From Bacteroidales bacterium (lineage in GTDB: Bacteria; Bacteroidota; Bacteroidia; Bacteroidales; UBA932), in assembly GCA_024401745.1 (NCBI GenBank), contig JAKSKK010000001.1, positions 86,225 through 150,224 on the forward strand: DNA of 64,000 nucleotides, written 5' to 3'. This document shows positions 2,462-39,324 of the stretch, one piece after another; position 1 is the stretch's first letter, and every line of letters begins with the position of its first letter. The position numbers and the translations under genes are program-made. The notes under the pieces are model-generated. The model did not search any database. It had not been told where the DNA came from and saw only the letters and a program-made list of their open reading frames with translations.

Positions 2462-2940
2462 TTAGATAAATCTTCTTCTATGTAAGCCGCCAGAATTTCC
2501 AAAGCTGATGCAGCAAAAGCCTTGATATTGGTTTTTCTGGACTCATGACTACTTAATCTGACCGTTTTTGTTCCCTTTGGACCATCGATTGCAGCCCAGC
2601 AGGTGCCTGCCGGCTCGTGTTCGTCGCCATATAGATCGGCCCATCCGGTGGTTGCGACGGAGTATGTGGAGCCGGTGAGGGCTCTGACTCCGCGGGCCAT
2701 CTCGGCAGCAACGGCGCTGCTGACGATTCCTTCGTTCAGGATGGTGTCAGGGCTGACGCCAAGAAGCTGTTCCTTAATTCTGGGATCGTAGGATGTCACG
2801 GAACCTAGGTAATAGTCGGAGGACCCGGGTACGGTTGTGATCAGATGGGAAATCATGCCACCGGTGCATGATTCTGCGGCTGAGAGCTTCAGGCCTGAGC
2901 CATGGAGCAGCCTTTTGATTCTGACTTCTGCCTTGATCAT
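2455..2940 (-). CDS. pncC: CinA C-terminal domain protein, nicotinamide-nucleotide amidase-like
   Basis: Stand-alone CinA C-terminal domain (161 residues, usual size), the PncC family that deamidates nicotinamide mononucleotide to nicotinate mononucleotide in the pyridine-nucleotide cycle. The signature SAAESCTGG is at residues 20-28, with Ser24 at the position of the family's catalytic serine; GSSDYYLGSVTSY follows as expected. One conserved block is altered: where the family usually has an SG-AGP-GG-type loop, this protein reads ATTGWADLYGDEHEPAG. The ATG overlaps the stop of the upstream PyrD-like gene by 4 bases, so they are co-transcribed. Activity is likely but the altered loop lowers certainty. 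Confidence 0.78.
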   Translation of the reverse strand: MIKAEVRIKRLLHGSGLKLSAAESCTGGMISHLITTVPGSSDYYLGSVTSYDPRIKEQLLGVSPDTILNEGIVSSAVAAEMARGVRALTGSTYSVATTGWADLYGDEHEPAGTCWAAIDGPKGTKTVRLSSHESRKTNIKAFAASALEILAAYIEEDLSKR

Positions 2941-3728
2941 TTCAAATCGGCTTTTTCAAGATAGTTGAGTGTCTTGCGCACAAGGGAAGGACCCTCGTAT
3001 ACCATGCCGCTGCGCAGCTCGATCAGCGAAGCACCGTCCTGGAGCAGTTCAGCGGCTTCAGAAGGCGATTTGATGTGGCAGTTGGCAATGATAGGCATGC
3101 GGCCTTTGGTATAGCTGTAAATGGCCTTTACGTGTTCTTTGGCACCTACTTCGACACCATCTATGCCGCTGTACATGCAATAGTCTAGCGCATGGTGCAG
3201 ATCATGCTCAGAGATGAATTCAGACAGTTTCAGGACGATTGGCTTGTATTCGTCATACGTGAGCCTGATGTTGAGAAGCTGGTCGATCGTATGCTCCTTC
3301 AGACCGGTCTGCTGATCTATGACGAAGAAGTCGCAGAAATCGTATACCAGTGAGAATGAGGTGGTTATGTCAGCTGAAATGCAGGCAGCAAGGATATCCT
3401 CGCAGGGCTTCTCCTGAATGTTCGCAATAGCCGTGCGGGTGTATGCCGCATTAAGAGGACCTATTTCCACGAAGCTGAATCCAAGATCCTCGAGCATTGC
3501 ACACATCTCGCCTTTCTTGTCAAGGCCGGCTCCGAGCCCAAGGGGATTGTAGAAATGAAGGCCGAAGACGTCACGGTCAATACCGAAGGACCTGTTCTTG
3601 TGCACGAGCCTGTAGAATTGGCGCAGGAGTGGAACCGCACCAATGAACTTGAAGTATCGTAACGCAACTGCAGAAGCTTTCTCCTTCTCCATGTTGCGCA
3701 CAAAAGGCTTTATCAGGAGATTATACAT
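2937..3728 (-). CDS. PyrD-like protein (class 2 dihydroorotate dehydrogenase homologue), degenerate
   Basis: The N-terminal helical region and first barrel strand match quinone-linked dihydroorotate dehydrogenase: NPLGLGAGLDKKGE followed by GFSFVEIG. The flavin-contacting Lys region (PIVLKLS) and the C-terminal GASLIELRSGMVYEGPSLV segment are also kept. However, the protein has 263 residues against roughly 330-345 for class 2 enzymes. The substrate loop with the NRMGFNN motif and the NISSPNTPG segment with the catalytic serine are absent, and the GGI phosphate-binding motif reads CHI. I infer a non-catalytic or repurposed relative; a true pyrD is expected elsewhere. Its TATATTTG box sits 4 bases before the ATG, implying a leaderless mRNA. 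Its stop overlaps the start of pncC. Confidence 0.65.
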   Translation of the reverse strand: MYNLLIKPFVRNMEKEKASAVALRYFKFIGAVPLLRQFYRLVHKNRSFGIDRDVFGLHFYNPLGLGAGLDKKGEMCAMLEDLGFSFVEIGPLNAAYTRTAIANIQEKPCEDILAACISADITTSFSLVYDFCDFFVIDQQTGLKEHTIDQLLNIRLTYDEYKPIVLKLSEFISEHDLHHALDYCMYSGIDGVEVGAKEHVKAIYSYTKGRMPIIANCHIKSPSEAAELLQDGASLIELRSGMVYEGPSLVRKTLNYLEKADLK

Positions 3729-3732
3729 ACAA

Positions 3733-3740
3733 CAAATATA
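3733..3740 (-). promoter_or_regulatory. -7 box of the PyrD-like gene, abutting its start codon
   Basis: TATATTTG on the minus strand ends 4 bases before the ATG at 3728. Using the spacing seen at rnpB (RNA starts about 6 bases after the box), transcription would start at the ATG itself. No clear TTTG element was found upstream. Confidence 0.5.
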
Positions 3741-3745
3741 GGGAA

Positions 3746-4177
3746 TTATTTGAGTTCTTGGTAACTCCCATCATCGTACAAGACGATAATCTTTGATATA
3801 TTCCGCTGTGATTTAGTTGTTTGTATAGTTTTAGTTGAAGTATTACTTTTGATATTTGCAACGATTTTCTCCGGTTCTGGCTGAGGTTCTGGCATGGTTG
3901 CAGCATCGTTCTTCACGATTTCTACGGGAGTGACAGGCGCCGTAACGGTCACATTATCAGAGATTTCGCCTTTATACATCTTGCCTTTTCCGGTGATCAG
4001 CCATTCCAGGTTGATCCTGGGGTAGTGTTTGCTCATGCTTTCGATGAAGTCGAAACCAGGCTTGTTCCTGCCGGCAAGAATATGACTTACGCTTGCACGT
4101 GCGACACCAATGGTATCGGCAAACACTGACTGTGAGATGTTTTCCGCGGCAAGAAACTGTTGTAGTCTGTTATTCAT
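3746..4177 (-). CDS. XRE-type helix-turn-helix transcriptional regulator
   Basis: A 143-residue DNA-binding protein. Residues 1-65 form an XRE/Cro-like HTH: FLAAENISQSVFADTIGVARASVSHILAGRNKPGFDFIESM, followed by a YPRINLEWLITGKGKMY segment typical of this Bacteroidota subfamily. Residues 75-143 are low-complexity, rich in Pro, Glu, Thr and Ser, and end in a short IIVLYDDGSYQELK segment that could mediate oligomerisation or partner binding. It has its own perfect promoter (TTTG-N19-TACTTTTG) and lies directly upstream of the pyrD-like/pncC pair, which has a separate promoter. Targets are not evident. Confidence 0.75.
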   Translation of the reverse strand: MNNRLQQFLAAENISQSVFADTIGVARASVSHILAGRNKPGFDFIESMSKHYPRINLEWLITGKGKMYKGEISDNVTVTAPVTPVEIVKNDAATMPEPQPEPEKIVANIKSNTSTKTIQTTKSQRNISKIIVLYDDGSYQELK

Positions 4178-4197
4178 ATTTGGTTACATTGATATTA

Positions 4198-4228
4198 CAA
4201 AAGTAATACTTTGTTAGGATATTTCAAA
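4198..4228 (-). promoter_or_regulatory. promoter of the XRE regulator gene
   Basis: TTTG at 4228-4225, a 19-base spacer and TACTTTTG at 4205-4198 on the minus strand. The predicted start near 4192 leaves a leader of about 15 bases before the ATG at 4177. Confidence 0.7.
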
Positions 4229-4552
4229 ATTCAGTTATGTAACACTTGGTCCGGAGATAGGAGAGAAAAGGCTGATAATATCCTATATCCATAAAGTAGA
4301 TAAGACAATACAAAACCTTATAAAACAAAGTTTTAGCATAAAGCTATATACCGCTATTTATGTGGTTGCCAATACATGGTGGTGCGTCACGCTCCAATAA
4401 CATCAACAATAACTCCAAGCAAATCAAATAAAAGATTGATTTATAATACTTTATACACCAATTATCAACTATATAATGTTTGCTTATATAAATATTGTAA
4501 ACAACGGTTATCGGTATGGTGTTTATATATGTAAATTAACAAAAGAAAATAG
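4229..4552. other. AT-rich gene-free stretch
   Basis: Between the promoter of the HTH gene and the queA terminator I see no plausible coding region, no RNA-like GC-rich fold and no clear promoter. Short direct and inverted AT-rich words are common but none stands out above base composition. Confidence 0.5.
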
Positions 4553-28484: not shown

Positions 28485-29489
28485 ATGGGAAAGAGGATAG
28501 AGTACCTTGATTTTCTGAAGTTCTTCGCGATCTTCTGCGTCCTTCTCGGACATTCCACCGAGCAGATATCTGCCGACATTTTCTGGGACCACCCGATATG
28601 GAGCTTCATCTATACCTATCACATGCCTCTGTTCATCTTCCTCAGCGGCTTCTTCTTCCGTTCGGCACTGAAGAAGGATTTCCTCACTGTCCTGTAGGAG
28701 AAGTCCATTCAGCTGCTCATACCATCAGTCACAGCATTCCTCATTGGAGTGATCATAATGCTGGCCGGCAGGACAAAGGCCATAGCAGACCTCTGTGAAA
28801 TGTCTTTTAACGGATTCATGAACTCCGTGTGGTTCCTCAAGTGCCTGTTCCTCTGCATAGTCTTAATGTATCCTCTATGCAAGCTCTGCAGGAAGGACTG
28901 GACCGCGGCACTCGTAGCAACTGTGGGCATCATCCTCTTGCCGGGAGCTCAGGTCGTGAACTTGAACTTCATGCTCCCTATGTTCGCGCTTGGTATGCTC
29001 ATTGGCAACAGGGTCGACAAACTCGAGAGACACTGGAAGCTGTGGACAATCCTCTCGGCAGTGGCATTCTTTGCACTGCTCCCCTTCTGGTCCGGCCGAC
29101 TTACAGTATACATGGTACCGACTGTGACGTTCAATGCCGGATCAATCGACTTCCATAACCTCGGAATCACCGTCTACAGGCTCGCCATTGGTGTGGCCGG
29201 TACATTGCTCTTCTTCTTCCTTTCAAAGCCCGTTTACGGCTTCCTGAAGCGCTTCAGCTGGACGCAGACCCTTTGCCGGATCGGTGGTGCGACGCTCGGC
29301 ATATATGTGCTGCAGACTTTCACCCTTGAGATATTCATCCACTGCCTGAATGTCTTCATTCCCCTTCCCTGGTCGTGCCTGGCAGCGCCGATAATAGCAA
29401 TAGCAGAGCTCGTGCTCTGCTACTGCATAGTCTGTCTTATCCGTCGCAGCAAGCTGGCAAGCCTGCTGATTCTCGGACAGAAACTCTAG
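28485..29489 (+). pseudogene. acyltransferase-3 family gene interrupted by an in-frame TAG
   Basis: From the ATG at 28485 (MGKRIEYLDFLKFFAIFCVLLGH, the usual start of integral-membrane acyltransferase 3 proteins with the catalytic His in LGH) the frame runs 70 codons to TAG at 28695-28697, then continues in the same frame with typical family sequence (EKSIQLLIPSV, then multiple membrane helices) to 29489. Removing that single codon restores a protein of about 334 residues with ten helices. TAG is used as a normal stop elsewhere here (kdsC), so recoding is unlikely. A recent nonsense mutation, or a sequencing error, is the simplest reading. The end overlaps the convergent GH106 gene by 4 bases. 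Confidence 0.75.
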
Positions 29490-32389
29490 TATTTCAGTAC
29501 AACCGGGCCCAGCAGACCGGCTGGTGCCAGTGCATGGTTCGCCTTGTAGAAGGCTGCCGTGGTGTATGTGGTCTTCTTGGGACAGTCGGGCTGTGCGTCG
29601 CCGATGAGGCGGTTCACCCAGGTGTTGACCACGTTAACCTCTATGGTGTTCTCCCCTGACTTTAGGAACTTTGCGACGTTGGCTGTGAAGGGAGCTCTCC
29701 AGAGAATGCCAACCTCCTCGCCATTGATCCTGAGCTCGCACAGGTCACAGACTCTGCCGAGTTCGAGCACGGCTACCTTGGGTGCCTTGTCGAGCGAGAG
29801 GGTCGTCGAGTACCTGCAGGTTCCTGAGAAGTACTTCAAGTCTTCGATGTCGGACTCCGTATAGTCGCTCAGCTCTTCAACGTCGATGGTCCTCTGGGGG
29901 AATTCCATCTTCCAGGCCTTGAGCTCAATGCTGCTGCCGGAAGGCTGGGGTGCTGCGGGTGCCGTGTAGCTGCTCTTGGCCTTGTCGGGAGTGAATACCA
30001 CGAACACGGCATCATTTGAGAAGAGATGCATGGGGATGATGGTCCTGCCGTTCTCGACGCGGTAGCTAGTCTCTGTAATCTCACCGCTGTCGGGGGTCCA
30101 GATGACGGGCTTCTGGCCTGCGCATCTGAGCGATATCTCAGCGTTCATCTCGCCGTCGGTGGGATTGTCTATCCAGTAGAATTCGGTGTTGCCGGTCTTC
30201 CTGTGCACGAAGCGGAGCTCAGCGGGGCCATCGACGTCCTTGGGCGTAGCAGCGATGGCGGATTCGAGGTCGCCGATCTCGCACATAGGTGCTCCTGCAT
30301 CGGTGAGTTCCTGAAGGCGTGCAGCCACTTCTTCAGACTGAGGAAGACCTGCGATGTCGAGGCAGAGGATGCTGTACTCTGCTCCTGAAGGTGCAACGAT
30401 GCGACCATTCTTCACTTCGATGTCGAACAGGCCGTCGGCATTGATGAAATCGTAGTTGTAACCAGTGGGAACGGGGAATTCCTTCAGGGCATACTTGGCG
30501 GTGACGTTGGTGTCCTCGCCATAGTAAACGAGCACGTCAGAGATGTTAAGGCCGCGTGACATCATGTATGAGGTCCTTGCCAGGTAGTCGGTCCAGGCCT
30601 TTGCCTGCTCTGCCCATGTCTCGTGGCGGTTGAACCACTGGCCGTAGCCCATGAGGCCGAGGCCGGGCTTGCAGTCGTCGAGCGGCTGGGATGAGGACTC
30701 ATGCACGAATATGCGGTTTATTCCGCTGGCGAACTCGGTGTCGGCCAGCCATTTGATGCGTTCGGGGGTGAAGGTGTAGGCATTGTCTTCCCAACCGTCT
30801 GCGGTGAATGACTCAGTGGCTACCCACTGGCCTCCGTAGAGGTGAGAGAGCGATGCTGACTCGCGCATGTCGGCCACGGCAACGGGTATGGTGGAGTGTG
30901 AGGTGGGACGGTCGACCTTTGCCCAGCATGCAGCCATAGGCACGTCGGCGTGGCGCTTGATCGACATTCCGTCGGTCACGAACACGCGGCCGTTCTCCTG
31001 CGACTCGAGGCATACGGTGCCGATTCCGTATTCGGCGGCTATCTCCTTCACGCTTGCGTAGCTGGCCTGATAGAGTTCGCCTATGGTGCGGCGCCAGTCG
31101 AAGAGGAACTTCTCGGACGCTTCCACGCTCTCGAGAATCTCTCCGGTGAGGACGGGCATCCAGGGCAGCATCGAGTAGCCTCTGCGTGCCTCGAACTCCT
31201 CGAACATCTTCGGTGTCCAGGTCTGCCAGCCGGCCTCGTAGCTGTCAACGAGCAGCTCAGTGATACCCCTGCTGCCTATCATGCCGCCGGTGGCCTCCTT
31301 GTACATGTCGAGGTACTTCACGAAGTAGTTGTGATATGCCTCCTGGTCGAGCTTGTCGACCTCCAGGCCGGTTGCCTCCTTGGGCGCGGGTCCGTTGCGC
31401 TTGCCGGTAAGGGTGTAGCCGAAGCGTATTATGCGCCAGCTGCCGTAAGGTGCCTCCCAGTTCAGCGTGCCGTCTTCCTCCATCATGTCGGTAAGGTCAG
31501 TGACTGACTCCTTTGCGGCCACGTTCTCCCCATTCGGAAGGATGGTGGGGAACTCGTTCAGGTCGTATGGCGAGCTGAATCCGGCCTTTTCCTCAGCCTT
31601 CATGATGCGTGTCTGGTTGAATAAGGTGTATTCGGGCGCTGCCTTGCCTGATTCATCGACCAGACGGAATTCCTGGGCCTTCGTGGGCGGGAAGTTGATG
31701 GTGATGTCGCCGGCGTTGGTGCCGGGGATGCGGGCAATCTCCCTGAAGTTCACGCCGTCATCGCTTGCCTCGAGGACGAGGCTGTGGTCGTATGGCTGAA
31801 CGTTCCACATGTTGCGGCCTCCGCGGCCGTAGACCTTGATCGACCTGTAGTCGTCGCATTCGTCAGGCAGATAGACTGCCAGCACCTTGATGTCCCTGTA
31901 GAAGTCGAGATTCGTCTTCGGCTGAGGAAGAGTGATGACGGGGTCCTCCCCTTCCTCTACGTCGACGTAGCTCCATACGAGGCGCTTCATGGCATCTTCC
32001 TTCTCGACCCACGGTCCACCCGTGTTGCTCCAGCCGGGAGAACTTGCTATGCCCACGGTCATTCCGAGCGAGTCGGACATGGCAATCGCATAGCGGAACG
32101 CGTCCTTCCAGTCGTCGTGCATGTAGATCATGCGGTTCTCGACGACGGGCGGCATGTTGATGCCGGCGTCGAAGTGATGGTATCCGCCGATGCCAATGCG
32201 GTGCATCCATTCGAGGTCCTTGCGGATGCCGTCCTTGGTGATGTTGCCGTCTTCCCAGTGCCACCATACGCGTGGACGGGCCTCCATGGGAGGATTGCGG
32301 AATTCTGATTCAAGAGTCTTGAAATCATTGTCGCCTGCGCAGGACATGAGTGCGAGCGCAGCTGTTGCAAGTATGAGTAACCTTTTCAT
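29486..32389 (-). CDS. GH106-like alpha-L-rhamnosidase, lipoprotein
   Basis: A 967-residue exported lipoprotein beginning at the ATG at 32389 ([17 protein letters not shown]; lipobox LMSC); an in-frame start seven codons upstream is rejected because it would overlap the promoter. The N-terminal catalytic barrel shows [24 protein letters not shown] and GGYHHFDAG, typical of GH106 and relatives acting on terminal alpha-L-rhamnose; after it come beta-sandwich domains, the last with [27 protein letters not shown]-type galactose-binding fold. Substrate not proven. The gene is divergent from pfkA, with a -7 box (TACTTTTG) 18 bases upstream. Confidence 0.82.
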
Positions 32390-32407
32390 TGTGATGTTTG
32401 AGACAAA

Positions 32408-32437
32408 CAAAAGTACGAAAAATAAATTGTATCTTTG
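32408..32437. promoter_or_regulatory. divergent -7 boxes for the GH106 gene and pfkA
   Basis: Minus-strand TACTTTTG (32415-32408) for the rhamnosidase gene, leader about 13 bases; plus-strand TATCTTTG (32430-32437) for pfkA, leader about 17 bases. Confidence 0.55.
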
Positions 32438-34438: not shown

Positions 34439-36304
34439 ATGTTCAGAAAAATATGCTTGGCCGTCCTTCTTGTGCTGATGACAGTCGGCGCTTCAGCGCA
34501 GACTGACTGGAACGGTGGGACGCGTTACGACTATCAGATAGATGGCAGGGATGCGGTACTGGTCGTGCCGGAGAATCCCGCACCCGGCAGGCCCTGGATA
34601 TGGCGTCCTGCCTTCTTCGACGCCTTTCCCTCGGTGGACATCGCCCTTCTCAAGGAAGGCTGGCACATAGCCTATTACGATGTCACACATTGCTACGGAA
34701 GCCCCGAGAGCGTGGGCTGGGCACACGATTTCTATGAAGATGCGGTGGCACGCTTCGGCGTGAATCCCAAGGTCACCATGGAAGGTTTCAGCCGCGGCGG
34801 CTATTTCTGCTTTGCGTGGGCGGAGGCCTACCCGGAGACCGTGGCGTCGATGTATCTGGACGCTCCGGTCTGTGACATACTCTCATGGCCCGGACGCAAG
34901 GATGAGGAGCTCTGGACTTCCTTCCTTGACTGGTGGTACATGCAGGACAGTGACGTCACTCCCTATTTCTCCGGCAATGCGCTCCAGCGTCTCCCTGCGA
35001 TTGCGAAGGCAGGAATACCTATGATAGGCGTATGCGGAGGCAGCGACAGCGTGGTGCCTTTCGAGGAGAATTTCAAGAGGGTCCGCGATCGCTATCAGGA
35101 CATGGGCGGCATAGTCGAGCTCATCCTCAAGCCTGAATGCGACCATCATCCCCACAGCCTGGATGATCCTGAACCCGTGGTGGACTTTGTAAAGCGCTAT
35201 GCCCCGGGATATGCTGACAGGCAGAGCATCAGCCTGCGTGGCAATCTGGATAACGCCATGTATGCCATGGCCGTGCGCAAGAAGGCTTGTGTCGCTTTCC
35301 TTGGCGGATCGATCACTGAAATGCGCGGATGGCGCAATCAGATAATGGAGGACCTTCAGCAGCGTTTCCCCGAAACCGAGTTCCAGTTCATCGAAGCCGG
35401 AATAGGCTCTCTGGGGTCTACTCCACATGCCTTCCGTTTCGAGCAGGACGTGCTGCAGCACGGCACTCCTGACCTGATGTTCTTCGAGGCGGCCGTCAAC
35501 GACGACACGAACGGTTTTGACGCACGCTCTCAGGTTCGCGGCGTAGAAGGCGTGGTCCGCCACGCTCTGGCCGTCAATCCCATGATGGACATAGTGCTCA
35601 TGCACTTCACGTATGAGCCGTTTGTGCCAATGATGGAGGACGGGGAAATTCCTGACGTGGTGCTCAACCATGAAAGGGTGGCCAACCGTTACCACCTGTG
35701 CTCGATCAACGAAGTGCAGGAAATCCATGACAGGATGCAGGCAGGTGAACTCACCTGGGAGCAGTTCGGCGGCTGCCATCCTGCATGGTATGGTCACAAG
35801 TTCTACACGGCTTCAATCAATGCTCTGCTTGACGCGAACACGAAGGCGTCATACTCCCCTGCCGTTCATCATGTTCCTGCAGCCATCGACGAGGCCTCGT
35901 ACTCAAGCGGCAAGCTGCTTACGCCTTCTCAGGCATTCGCACTTAAGGGCTTCCAGTATGATGAGGACTGGACACCGGCGATCGAGGCCGGCACAAGAGT
36001 CGGTTTCGTGAATGTCCCCATGCTTGCAACAAGCGTCGGCGGTTCGCTGCGATATTACTTCAACGGCAACGACATCGGCATTTTCTGCGTGGCAGGGCCG
36101 GATGCCGCGGTGATCAGCTACCGCATCGACCGTGGAGAATGGAAGGAACTCGACACCTATACTGAATGGAGCGAGGGACTGTATATTCCTTGGGTTTATA
36201 TGCTTGGCGAAGATCTGCCTGAAGGCATGCACAGCCTTGAGATCAAGGTTCCGACCGAGGGCGAACGCCGTGGCTGCGTGATAAGAAATTTTGTAGTTAA
36301 TTGA
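34439..36304 (+). CDS. fused alpha/beta-hydrolase and SGNH-hydrolase, exported
   Basis: A 621-residue secreted two-enzyme protein. Signal peptide ends near ASAQ (residue 21). Residues about 30-270 are an alpha/beta hydrolase: nucleophile elbow GFSRGGY with Ser118, and HHPH near residue 238 as candidate His. Residues about 280-480 are an SGNH/GDSL hydrolase: block I GGSITEM with Ser291, block V CHPAWYGH with His447. The Asp that usually stands three residues before that His is Gly here, so the second site is a Ser-His pair or uses another acid. Residues 480-621 form a beta-rich tail. Probably deacylates plant or algal glycans. The next gene starts 2 bases after this stop. Confidence 0.78.
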   Translation: MFRKICLAVLLVLMTVGASAQTDWNGGTRYDYQIDGRDAVLVVPENPAPGRPWIWRPAFFDAFPSVDIALLKEGWHIAYYDVTHCYGSPESVGWAHDFYEDAVARFGVNPKVTMEGFSRGGYFCFAWAEAYPETVASMYLDAPVCDILSWPGRKDEELWTSFLDWWYMQDSDVTPYFSGNALQRLPAIAKAGIPMIGVCGGSDSVVPFEENFKRVRDRYQDMGGIVELILKPECDHHPHSLDDPEPVVDFVKRYAPGYADRQSISLRGNLDNAMYAMAVRKKACVAFLGGSITEMRGWRNQIMEDLQQRFPETEFQFIEAGIGSLGSTPHAFRFEQDVLQHGTPDLMFFEAAVNDDTNGFDARSQVRGVEGVVRHALAVNPMMDIVLMHFTYEPFVPMMEDGEIPDVVLNHERVANRYHLCSINEVQEIHDRMQAGELTWEQFGGCHPAWYGHKFYTASINALLDANTKASYSPAVHHVPAAIDEASYSSGKLLTPSQAFALKGFQYDEDWTPAIEAGTRVGFVNVPMLATSVGGSLRYYFNGNDIGIFCVAGPDAAVISYRIDRGEWKELDTYTEWSEGLYIPWVYMLGEDLPEGMHSLEIKVPTEGERRGCVIRNFVVN

Positions 36305-36306
36305 AT

Positions 36307-39300
36307 ATGAGAAAATTATTTTTGACAATCAGCCTGCTGCTGCCGCTGTTCTTGGCAGCGCAGGAACGCGAGCCGGTATGGCCCGATGGCAAGATGCCTG
36401 ACAGGCAGGATCATCAGATTGCTGCGATGGTGAACGAGTTCGGGCCCGGCTTCGATGCCGACCAGCATCGTACGGCCTACCTGGAATGGTTCGAGGCACC
36501 TGAGCATCCCAACGGAGGCTGCATGATCCTCATCTCCGGCGGCAGCTATATGTGCTGCTGCGACATCCAGCTCATCAAGGAGTGGCGCGAATGCTTCACC
36601 GCAATGGGCTTCCAGTGCGTCAACTTCGTATATCGCACACCCCGCCCTGTTGGCCTTCCCATCTACCAGACTGCCTGGGAGGACGGCCAGCGTGCAGTGA
36701 GGATGGTCCGCAGCGAGGCTGCGAAGCGCGGCTTCGACCCTGAAAAGATCGGAACTGTCTCGATGTCTGCCGGCTCTCACCTTGCCCTGCTGCTTGCCAC
36801 GAGCTCACAGACTCCAGCATACGGGAAGACAGATGCGATCGACGACCTTCCCTGCCACATCAACTGGGCTATCGTGAATGCGCCCGCATACGTCACTACC
36901 GACGGTGAGAACGGCGACCCCGCTCAGCGCATTGGCATCGGCCCCGACGTGAAGATCTCCGACTGCTTCAAGTTCGACGAGAAGACCTGCCCCATGAGCC
37001 TCCATCACGGTGGCGAGGATCCATACACCCCGAGCGGTTCCACCCTCGTCTACAAGGAGCTCCACAAGCGTGGCATTCCTGCCGAGCTGCATCTCTATCC
37101 CGGCAAGGGCCACGGTGCTTTCGGCCTTGACCGTGCTGTCGAGTTCATCAATCAGATGGAGTTCGTGAAGCCTCTCGAGCCTGAAGTCGCCATCATGGAC
37201 CGCTACGCCAGCGACGAGGATCAGGTTGAAGTTATCGACGAGGACATCTGGCCTGAGGGCAAGATGCCTAACGACGGACTTGACCAGAAGCACCCCTACA
37301 TCTCATGGCACATCCCCGTAAACCGCAGAACTGATGCAGTGCAGATCATCTGGTCAGGCGGAGGTTATTACGGCAACAGCCCCGACGGCTTCGAGGTCGA
37401 CCCTGCAAGGCGCTATCTGAACGAGAGGGGCATGACCGTCGTGACCCTGCAGTACCGCACTCCCCGCCCTGCTCCTGAGACGAATCTCGGAATGCACACG
37501 CCTGCATGGCAGGACATCCAGCGAGCTATCAGACTGGTACGCAGCGAGGCCCGCTCTCACGGCTGCGACCCGAACCAGATTGGCATCATGGGCAGCTCTG
37601 CCGGCGGACATCTCTGCCTCATGGGCGTCACCTCATCGGCCCAGCGTTCCTATCTGCCCATCGACGACGTCGACAAGCTCCCCTGCAATGTCCAGTGGGG
37701 AATCGGCATATATCCCGCATACGTACTCTCTGACGGCTTCGGGGATGCGAACGCGCAGCATGGCGACGGCGACGAGCTCTACCTCGCTCCGGAATTCAAC
37801 TTCGACAAGGACACGGCCCCCATGCTCTTCATCCAGGGCGATGAGGACGTGTACTCTTCAGTGGGCTCAGTCCGCGTTTGGGAGAAGATGCGCAGCATGG
37901 GAGTCCAGAGCGAACTGCACTTGCTTGCCAAGCGCAACCATTGCTTTCAGCGAACTGCATCTCCCGGAACAGGCAGCTACACCTGGCTCGACCGCATAGG
38001 CGAGTTCCTTGACGAGAGGCTTGACGACTGGTGGGGACATTACACCGCTCCCAAGGACGAGCAGGTTCTTGCCAAGCTCGACCAGTGGCAGGACCTCAAG
38101 TTCGGTGTCATCTTCCACTGGGGACTCTATGCGATTCCCGGAATCGTGGAGTCCTGGGGGCTCTGCGGCGAGGACTTCGACTGGGAAACAGCTGCCCGTG
38201 AGCAGTTGGGCATGTCTCTCGATGAGTTCAGAAAGTGGTACTGGGGCTTGAATTCGCAGATGAACCCTACCCAGTTCGACCCTTCCAAGTGGGCTGACAT
38301 AATGAAGGATGCCGGAATGAAGTATCTTGTGTTCACCACCAAGCATCATGACGGCTTCTGCATGTTCGACTCCAAGTACACTGATTTCAAGATCACTAAC
38401 ACTCCTTTCGGCTCCGACCCCCGCAGCAATGTGGCAAAGGAAGTCTTCAACGCATTCCGTGAGAAGGATTTCATGGTCGGAGCATACTTCTCAAAGCCTG
38501 ACTGGCACTGCAAGGATTTCTGGAATCCCAAGTTTGCTGCAGCCGACAGATATCAGAACTACGACAAGGCAGCACACCCCGACTGGTGGCGTAACTACGT
38601 CGACTACACCAAGAATCAGCTGAATGAGATCACCAGCGGCGAGTACGGCAACATCGACATCCTGTGGCTTGACGGCGGATGGATAGACGGCAAGTCAGTC
38701 GAGCTTGGTGATGTGCTCGAAGGTGCACGCCAGCGCAACCCGGGCATGATCAGCGTCGACCGTGCATGCCGCGGCGAGTTCGAGAACTATCAGACCCCCG
38801 AATGCCAGATTCCTCCCGCACAGTTCGACTTCCCCTGGGAGACCTGCGACGTGATGGCTGGCTGGGGCTGGGTGAACAACCCCAATTATAAGAGCAACGT
38901 TGCCATCATCGCCAATCTTGTCGAAGTTGTCGCAAAGGGTGGAAACTACCTGCTCGGAGTTGGTCCCAAACCTGACGGAACCATCGATGAGATTGCTGCC
39001 TTGATACTACGCTGTGTGGGTGATTGGCTGCGCAAGTACGGTGATGCTATCTACAACACTCGCATCACCAAGAACTATCACCAGGGCGACGTGTGGTTCA
39101 CAGCCAACAAGGACGGCAAGACTCTCAATGCCATCTGGGTATACAAGGAGGGGCCGAAGCCTCAGACCATAGAATGGAAGGGCAACATCCCTACCGGCAA
39201 GATGGTGCTTCTTTCGACCGGAAAGGCCGTGAAGTACAAGGTAGAAGGCGACAAGGTCACCGTGACCCTGCCGAAGAACATGCCGTTGGAGTCGTTTGCT

Positions 39301-39324
39301 CTTAAGTTTACTGCAGCTCTTTAG
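36307..39324 (+). CDS. esterase-esterase-GH29 alpha-L-fucosidase triple fusion, exported
   Basis: A 1005-residue secreted protein with signal peptide to about residue 19 (FLAAQ). Residues 20-310: alpha/beta hydrolase of the acetyl-xylan-esterase-like type, elbow SMSAGSH with Ser154, and GKGHGAF with the catalytic His. Residues 311-575: a second copy of the same fold, GSSAGGH with Ser431 and KRNHCFQ. Both share the YRTPRP segment. Residues 590-1005: GH29 fucosidase, with FGVIFHWGLYAIPG, FTTKHHDGFCMFDS and the nucleophile Asp789 in ILWLDGGW. The ATG at 36307 follows the upstream stop by 2 bases; an in-frame TTG at 36301 overlaps that stop. Likely removes O-acyl groups and fucose from the same side chain. 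Confidence 0.85.
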   Translation: MRKLFLTISLLLPLFLAAQEREPVWPDGKMPDRQDHQIAAMVNEFGPGFDADQHRTAYLEWFEAPEHPNGGCMILISGGSYMCCCDIQLIKEWRECFTAMGFQCVNFVYRTPRPVGLPIYQTAWEDGQRAVRMVRSEAAKRGFDPEKIGTVSMSAGSHLALLLATSSQTPAYGKTDAIDDLPCHINWAIVNAPAYVTTDGENGDPAQRIGIGPDVKISDCFKFDEKTCPMSLHHGGEDPYTPSGSTLVYKELHKRGIPAELHLYPGKGHGAFGLDRAVEFINQMEFVKPLEPEVAIMDRYASDEDQVEVIDEDIWPEGKMPNDGLDQKHPYISWHIPVNRRTDAVQIIWSGGGYYGNSPDGFEVDPARRYLNERGMTVVTLQYRTPRPAPETNLGMHTPAWQDIQRAIRLVRSEARSHGCDPNQIGIMGSSAGGHLCLMGVTSSAQRSYLPIDDVDKLPCNVQWGIGIYPAYVLSDGFGDANAQHGDGDELYLAPEFNFDKDTAPMLFIQGDEDVYSSVGSVRVWEKMRSMGVQSELHLLAKRNHCFQRTASPGTGSYTWLDRIGEFLDERLDDWWGHYTAPKDEQVLAKLDQWQDLKFGVIFHWGLYAIPGIVESWGLCGEDFDWETAAREQLGMSLDEFRKWYWGLNSQMNPTQFDPSKWADIMKDAGMKYLVFTTKHHDGFCMFDSKYTDFKITNTPFGSDPRSNVAKEVFNAFREKDFMVGAYFSKPDWHCKDFWNPKFAAADRYQNYDKAAHPDWWRNYVDYTKNQLNEITSGEYGNIDILWLDGGWIDGKSVELGDVLEGARQRNPGMISVDRACRGEFENYQTPECQIPPAQFDFPWETCDVMAGWGWVNNPNYKSNVAIIANLVEVVAKGGNYLLGVGPKPDGTIDEIAALILRCVGDWLRKYGDAIYNTRITKNYHQGDVWFTANKDGKTLNAIWVYKEGPKPQTIEWKGNIPTGKMVLLSTGKAVKYKVEGDKVTVTLPKNMPLESFALKFTAAL

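Follow-up and report, generated by a model that had tools for sequence, protein, structure and literature searches.

The DNA analysed here is a stretch of 64,000 nucleotides from a Bacteroidales bacterium (contig JAKSKK010000001.1; the whole stretch is called the window), in which one gene at 36307..39324 on the + strand joins two alpha/beta-hydrolase units, E1 and E2, to a domain of glycoside hydrolase family 29 (GH29). This raises the question of whether the chain is a genuine three-domain enzyme and, if so, on what its parts would act together. As the answer we consider probable, the product is a secreted, probably periplasmic deacylase-fucosidase that arose by one fusion, in which E1 and E2 would deacylate and the GH29 unit would defucosylate the same oligosaccharide pool.

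The open reading frame was found to be unbroken, running from the ATG at 36307 through 1005 codons (coding 36307-39321) to the stop at 39322-39324 on the + strand, with the following layout.

36307..39324, + strand: whole gene, tandem esterase-GH29 fusion of 1005 residues plus stop (open reading frame, translation and Pfam)
36307..36363, + strand: probable signal peptide MRKLFLTISLLLPLFLAAQ, residues 1-19, without a lipobox Cys (by eye)
36364..37197, + strand: E1, alpha/beta-hydrolase esterase, residues 20-297, with Ser154, Asp238 and His269 (Pfam, NCBIfam, alignment and solved relatives)
36766..36768, + strand: nucleophile Ser154 of E1, in S-M-S-A-G (invariant, 31/31)
37240..38010, + strand: E2, alpha/beta-hydrolase esterase, residues 312-568, with Ser431, Asp514 and His545 (Pfam, alignment, solved relatives and E1-E2 comparison)
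37597..37599, + strand: nucleophile Ser431 of E2, in G-S-S-A-G-G-H (invariant, 31/31)
38011..38037, + strand: E2-GH29 junction of about nine residues, practically no linker (6 of 9 positions invariant in five fused proteins)
38038..39306, + strand: GH29 alpha-L-fucosidase catalytic domain and C-terminal part, residues 578-1000 (Pfam, solved relatives and alignment)
38671..38673, + strand: GH29 nucleophile Asp789 (23/23 rows; aligns with position 224 of chain 2zwy)
38800..38802, + strand: GH29 acid/base Glu832 (23/23 rows; aligns with position 266 of chain 2zwy)

An earlier reading of this DNA made from its letters alone, referred to below as the sequence-only reading, had the coordinates, frame and residue numbers right (Ser154 in SMSAGSH, Ser431 in GSSAGGH and Asp789 in DILWLDGGW), and its view of two alpha/beta-hydrolase units and a complete GH29 in one chain was borne out by Pfam matches above the cut-off. 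The three catalytic domains of this secreted chain are probably active, judging from their conserved residues. Release of the product to the periplasm is most likely, since the predicted signal peptide carries no lipobox cysteine; 4 of its 19 positions were invariant across the five fused proteins, which comprise the window protein and four relatives described below. Shuffled sequence gave on average 2.9 promoter-like and 3.3 (standard deviation 2.0) terminator-like sites, compared with 2 and 5 in the actual DNA, and neither count was informative.

In the esterase half, BD-FAE (93.6 bits; Pfam cut-off 26.8) and Abhydrolase_3 (67.7 bits; Pfam cut-off 25) each matched two stretches of the protein, and E1 and E2 of the window protein share 35% identity across 275 aligned columns. 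Among solved structures, both units have esterases as relatives, 6a6o being the top match for each; the E1 triad aligns with 6a6o, and Ser, Asp and His of E2 align with those of E1. An alignment of 31 proteins, made up of the five fused ones and 26 of the 55 lone tandem esterases collected, revealed the triads Ser154/Asp238/His269 and Ser431/Asp514/His545 to be present throughout (31/31). The N-terminal 575 residues therefore match catalytic alpha/beta hydrolases and not one non-catalytic fold, and neither Ser/His site is lost in the aligned relatives.

The 'lost' first Gly of GxSxG in E1, noted by the sequence-only reading, proved not to be peculiar to this protein. Among the 31 aligned proteins, this elbow position is occupied by Ser in 25, by Gly in 5 and by Ala in 1, so that Ser is the family norm, a mark of the E1 lineage and not a sign of decay or of a new linkage; with Ser as the commonest state, a decayed first esterase was ruled out. 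E1 and E2 are equally conserved (in either unit, 69% of the positions do not vary across the five fused proteins), and because they are at the same time strongly diverged from each other, this suggests that they may serve different acyl positions or residues.

For the C-terminal half, Alpha_L_fucos (PF01120) scored 265.1 bits at residues 578-913 against a Pfam cut-off of 25.2, placing this part in GH29 by profile, and its solved relatives are alpha-L-fucosidases with 6gn6 as the top match. Asp789 and Glu832 were invariant in 23/23 rows of an alignment comprising the five fused proteins and 18 of the 20 GH29 rows collected (L002, about 30% identical, and the truncated L107 were omitted), and they align with positions 224 and 266 of 2zwy, the numbering of which was counted by hand from the pairwise alignment. 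We take 2zwy to be the Thermotoga maritima alpha-L-fucosidase, with residue 224 as the nucleophile and residue 266 as the acid/base; by this alignment, the GH29 unit is predicted to be a retaining alpha-L-fucosidase.

Several relatives of the GH29 unit showed arrangements of their own. At L098, L100 and L107 (the last being shorter), the frames continue into a GH3 glycosidase, and at L101 and L102 the long frames match those of the L098/L100-type relatives in length and in where the GH29 lies. Two GH29 stretches per chain were found at L116:8323-11343 (- strand, 1007 residues, contig C20 of the window's own genome) and at L121:7601-10321 (- strand, 907 residues). At L115, on contig C56 of the window's own genome, a distant GH29 lies near a GH20 gene and a gene which, by its first residues, resembles the GH130 gene of L118; this place looks like an N-glycan locus.

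The sequence-only reading had proposed a search for the same domain order in other genomes, and the order was indeed recovered from four other metagenome-assembled genome (MAG) assemblies. A contig search yielded six loci, four of them with the full esterase-esterase-GH29 order, and the best-segment identity to the window protein was 87% for L015, 82% for L012, 77% for L014 and 72% for L013. Because the order recurs in these other assemblies, the fusion is not an assembly accident, and an assembly chimera was ruled out. A phage origin was likewise rejected, as none of the 13 matching phage records covers 80% of the protein and all 13 are below 60% identity.

The fused form was found in 4 of 400 same-genus genomes and in 2 of 299 same-family genomes, the window's own being included in both counts. 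At the order level (393 genomes, E 1e-240), the window's genome was the sole fused case and four others had the tandem esterase only, and at the phylum level (395 genomes, E 1e-140), it was again the sole fused case with one other genome having the GH29 only; these genome samples overlap, each includes the window's genome, and the strict E limits could miss highly diverged fusions. Five fused genomes were found in total, and the joining of two common enzymes is rare but genuine. L012 and L014 are from horse faeces, and the species names of L013 and L015, together with the MAG code of L013, are assigned to horse faecal bacteria in PMC8957277. MAG sampling may be the reason why the fusion appears only in horses.

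The ratio of nonsynonymous to synonymous substitution rates (dN/dS) among the five fused genes was 0.02-0.08 for E1 (finite in 3 of 10 pairs), 0.04-0.11 for E2 (9 of 10) and 0.07-0.10 for GH29 (7 of 10), the remaining pairs being saturated at synonymous sites. With low values in every domain, all three domains are under strong purifying selection. E2 passes into GH29 without a flexible linker, via about nine residues of which six are invariant.

As separate proteins, both halves are widespread. The tandem esterase was present in 102 of 250 same-genus genomes (4 of those fused, leaving 98 without a GH29 fusion) and occurs also in other Bacteroidales families, and the GH29 type of the window protein was present in 53 of the 250 (4 fused, leaving 49 without fusion). 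A quick-method tree of 60 tandem-esterase rows placed the five fused proteins together on one side of a fully supported branch. They also formed one clade in a GH29 tree of 24 rows and in one of 27 rows that included the closest lone GH29s found (G356, 62%, and G044, 59%). Since the fused proteins form one clade on the trees of both halves, the likely origin is a single event that joined two secreted enzymes already in existence and in which the GH29 lost its signal peptide.

In the 246 genomes that remain of the 250 when the four fused ones are set apart, the lone tandem esterase and the lone GH29 (E <=1e-150) were both present in 28, the tandem alone in 70, the GH29 alone in 15 and neither in 133 (odds ratio 3.5, Fisher p 0.0003, kinship and genome size being uncorrected). 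With a looser GH29 limit of 1e-110, the counts were 31, 67, 18 and 130, respectively, and the odds ratio was 3.3. The two lone genes lie on one contig, not adjacent, in G248, G313 and G421, and distant GH29-family genes (24-27% identical) were located within 5 kb of a lone tandem gene at 2 of 21 loci (L074 and L088).

Two further tandem-esterase arrangements were recorded. On contig C69 of G444, two tandem-esterase genes are adjacent (1055-2734 and 2795-4471), giving four esterase units in a row. The tandem-esterase frame at L108, of 1,830-1,886 residues, was set aside, as Pfam matches nothing in its long N-terminal part, which may be open by chance.

Around the fusion gene, two features of the window were of interest.

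34439..36304, + strand: upstream gene, alpha/beta hydrolase plus SGNH (GDSL) esterase, 621 residues, possible operon partner (Pfam)
29486..32410, - strand: GH106-type alpha-L-rhamnosidase with a C-terminal jelly-roll domain (Pfam, NCBIfam)

The stop of the upstream esterase gene lies 2 bases ahead of the fusion ATG at 36307, and the sole solved match of the SGNH gene at E <=0.01 was 6hfz, which we take to be a mannan acetylesterase of family CE17. Besides the window, L015 is the only fused locus that has this gene next to the fusion, and it is not found there at L012, L013 or L014; it is therefore not essential, and a two-gene operon as the functional unit was rejected. At L012, the gene directly downstream of the fusion encodes a DUF4838-PA14 protein.

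Regarding function, we propose that E1 and E2, acting as serine hydrolases, would release acyl groups, most likely acetyl, from imported oligosaccharide and that the GH29 unit would remove terminal alpha-L-fucose from the same oligosaccharide pool, so that one chain would couple the removal of blocking decorations to exo-cleavage. That all three sites act on one O-acylated side chain, as the sequence-only reading proposed, is a possibility in favour of which the co-occurrence of the lone halves and the distant GH29-family genes at L074 and L088 speak. Plant cell-wall material bearing acetyl groups and fucose, either pectin or a glycoprotein linked to it, is the most likely substrate, for which our confidence is modest and below that in the enzyme assignment.

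On the esterase side, some of the evidence hints at pectin. The best NCBIfam match of the protein is the pectin acetylesterase PaeX (NF041902; best stretch residues 14-275), followed by the acetylxylan esterase AxeA1 (NF042968; best stretch in E2), which at 91.2 bits lies below its equivalog cut-off of 700. At L128:7968-11729 (- strand), a chain of 1254 residues runs from the tandem esterase into GH88/105 and then a pectinesterase, an arrangement of four carbohydrate-acting domains in one protein that was seen in one genome, and at L129:290-2791 (- strand), a SASA esterase precedes the tandem esterase in a chain of 834 residues with thus three esterases, about 4 kb from genes for glucuronate isomerase and D-mannonate oxidoreductase. 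The tandem esterase of L077 is found downstream of araD, araA, araB and an aldose epimerase gene, and that of L114 adjoins a GH78-type rhamnosidase gene. Lone tandem genes at 21 loci have 122 neighbours, of which 73 were scanned; among the families listed (25 of 65) were two GH28, one GH43, one GH78-type, four Melibiase-like and three GH20-like genes besides many housekeeping ones, the GH28, GH43 and GH78-type neighbours being a weak pectin signal. In the window's genome, GH88/105, GH28 and pectinesterase all matched on contig C63, and in the fused-form genome G461 GH88/105 and GH28 did so; GH78-type and GH95 matches were obtained in both.

Several observations weigh against this assignment. 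The PaeX match scored 132.5 bits, far below the equivalog cut-off of 550, so that neither the acyl group nor the substrate is established by this match. No pectinesterase match was obtained in G461 in the profile search of two fused-form genomes, and as GH88/105, GH28 and pectinesterase families match in several control genomes too, their presence in fused-form genomes says little. No clear pectin gene was seen beside the four other fused genes, whose neighbours were judged by eye from their first residues, with a profile scan for L012 only. GH20-like genes with products of 373-381 residues lie 5 bases upstream of the lone tandem esterase (L069:1040-2182, L070:8104-9222 and L073:7565-8692), which fits glycoproteins better than pectin. 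At the loci inspected, lone tandem genes and lone GH29 genes of this type were never seen side by side, and the latter keep company of their own: NAGLU and Peptidase_M6 at L104, Peptidase_M6 also at L105, GH95 and GH20 as well as GH43 and a GH106-type gene at L094, and a transglutaminase-like secreted protein of 770-831 residues at L096:11426-13918, L099:10425-12863, L103:10644-13088 and L118:6707-9016. These neighbours suggest glycoprotein substrates for the lone GH29, and the neighbourhoods of the two halves suggest partly different glycans.

The alternative that survives best keeps the enzyme and changes its substrate to the glycans of glycoproteins (gut mucin or plant N-glycans) in O-acetylated and fucosylated form, from which the esterases would clear acetyl groups that block exo-glycosidases. 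It would account for the NAGLU, peptidase, GH95, GH20 and transglutaminase-like neighbours of the lone GH29 and for the GH20-like genes immediately upstream of three lone tandem esterases; however, other lone or fused tandem esterases lie near pectin, uronate and arabinose genes, two GH28 being among the neighbours listed, and we regard this substrate as rather unlikely.

With a somewhat lower probability still, only one esterase unit may be catalytically important, the other being kept as a structural or binding partner. A precedent is the double-CE1 protein of Dysgonomonas mossii, one domain of which is nearly inactive according to PMC8040265. In the present family, however, both triads are complete in every aligned protein and the two units are conserved to the same degree.

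We are equally doubtful that the fusion arose neutrally when the genes became joined, with halves that act independently on unrelated substrates. Its occurrence in five genomes of one clade, and the partly different neighbourhoods to which the two halves point, would be consistent with this; against it, the fused proteins have diverged to 72% identity without loss of the fusion or of any active site, and the lone halves co-occur above expectation (kinship uncorrected).

Xyloglucan, from which the esterases would take acetyl off the fucose-bearing galactose before GH29 takes the fucose, is the third substrate candidate. According to PMC8245568, the fucosylated form of dicots can be acetylated on the galactosyl residue, and in Xanthomonas a CE20 acetylesterase and a GH95 fucosidase work as a pair on such material; some GH29 relatives are fused to GH3, which would also suit this substrate. 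We consider it quite improbable, and no xyloglucanase family was found among the Pfam-scanned neighbours listed (25 of 65 families in the lone-tandem tally; GH74, GH31 and GH5 were not searched genome-wide).

Returning to the deacylase-fucosidase of plant cell-wall material, a wider and speculative extension, to which we give little credence as yet, is that the double esterase could be a decoration-stripping cassette of Bacteroidales, joined almost without linker to whichever hydrolase next meets the acylated residue: GH29 here, GH88/105 and pectinesterase at L128 and a third esterase at L129. The horse-hindgut GH29 version could then be a rigid three-site machine with one esterase working on the backbone and the other on the fucosylated side chain.

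Compared with known systems, the likeness to the GH29 structures 1hl8/2zwy, 2wvv and 6gn6 (best match) extends over the whole catalytic domain, including the Asp/Glu pair at 2zwy positions 224/266; 1hl8/2zwy are presumably the Thermotoga maritima enzyme and 2wvv a Bacteroides enzyme. Relative to known GH29 fucosidases, the window protein adds two N-terminal esterase domains, and in the main text of the fucosidase mini-review PMC10154630, no word beginning with 'esterase' occurs. With PaeX-type pectin acetylesterases, the protein distantly shares the alpha/beta-hydrolase fold with Ser-Asp-His, and it differs from them in having two copies in tandem and a GH29. The lone tandem esterases of Bacteroidales (about 575 residues) are about 60-75% identical to it and have the same triads but no GH29 domain, and our searches found no characterised member among them.

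Two esterases per chain are also found in the double-CE1 enzyme of D. mossii, which differs in esterase family and has xylan as its substrate (PMC8040265). The protein of PDB entry 6mly, titled a bifunctional GH43-CE protein, likewise combines an esterase and a glycosidase in one chain, with both families being different. The pectin methylesterase BT1017 of the rhamnogalacturonan II (RG-II) system is an alpha/beta-hydrolase serine esterase in pectin use by Bacteroides, and its activity, as reported in PMC7939467, is demethylation, not deacetylation; no solved-structure match of E1 or E2 at E <=0.001 was titled pectin methylesterase. The esterase-esterase-GH29 order was not described in the titles or abstract openings searched in the literature, which is no proof of absence. 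It is thus the architecture that is new, the component families and esterase-glycosidase fusions as such being already known.

Acyl decorations are a main obstacle to the breakdown of plant fibre and glycoproteins. The fusion offers a direct test of why two esterase paralogues stay together across Bacteroidales and of whether fusion to an exo-glycosidase speeds debranching. The protein is a ready candidate for a three-activity catalyst, and the fused and neighbouring partners provide substrate clues for a widespread esterase pair.

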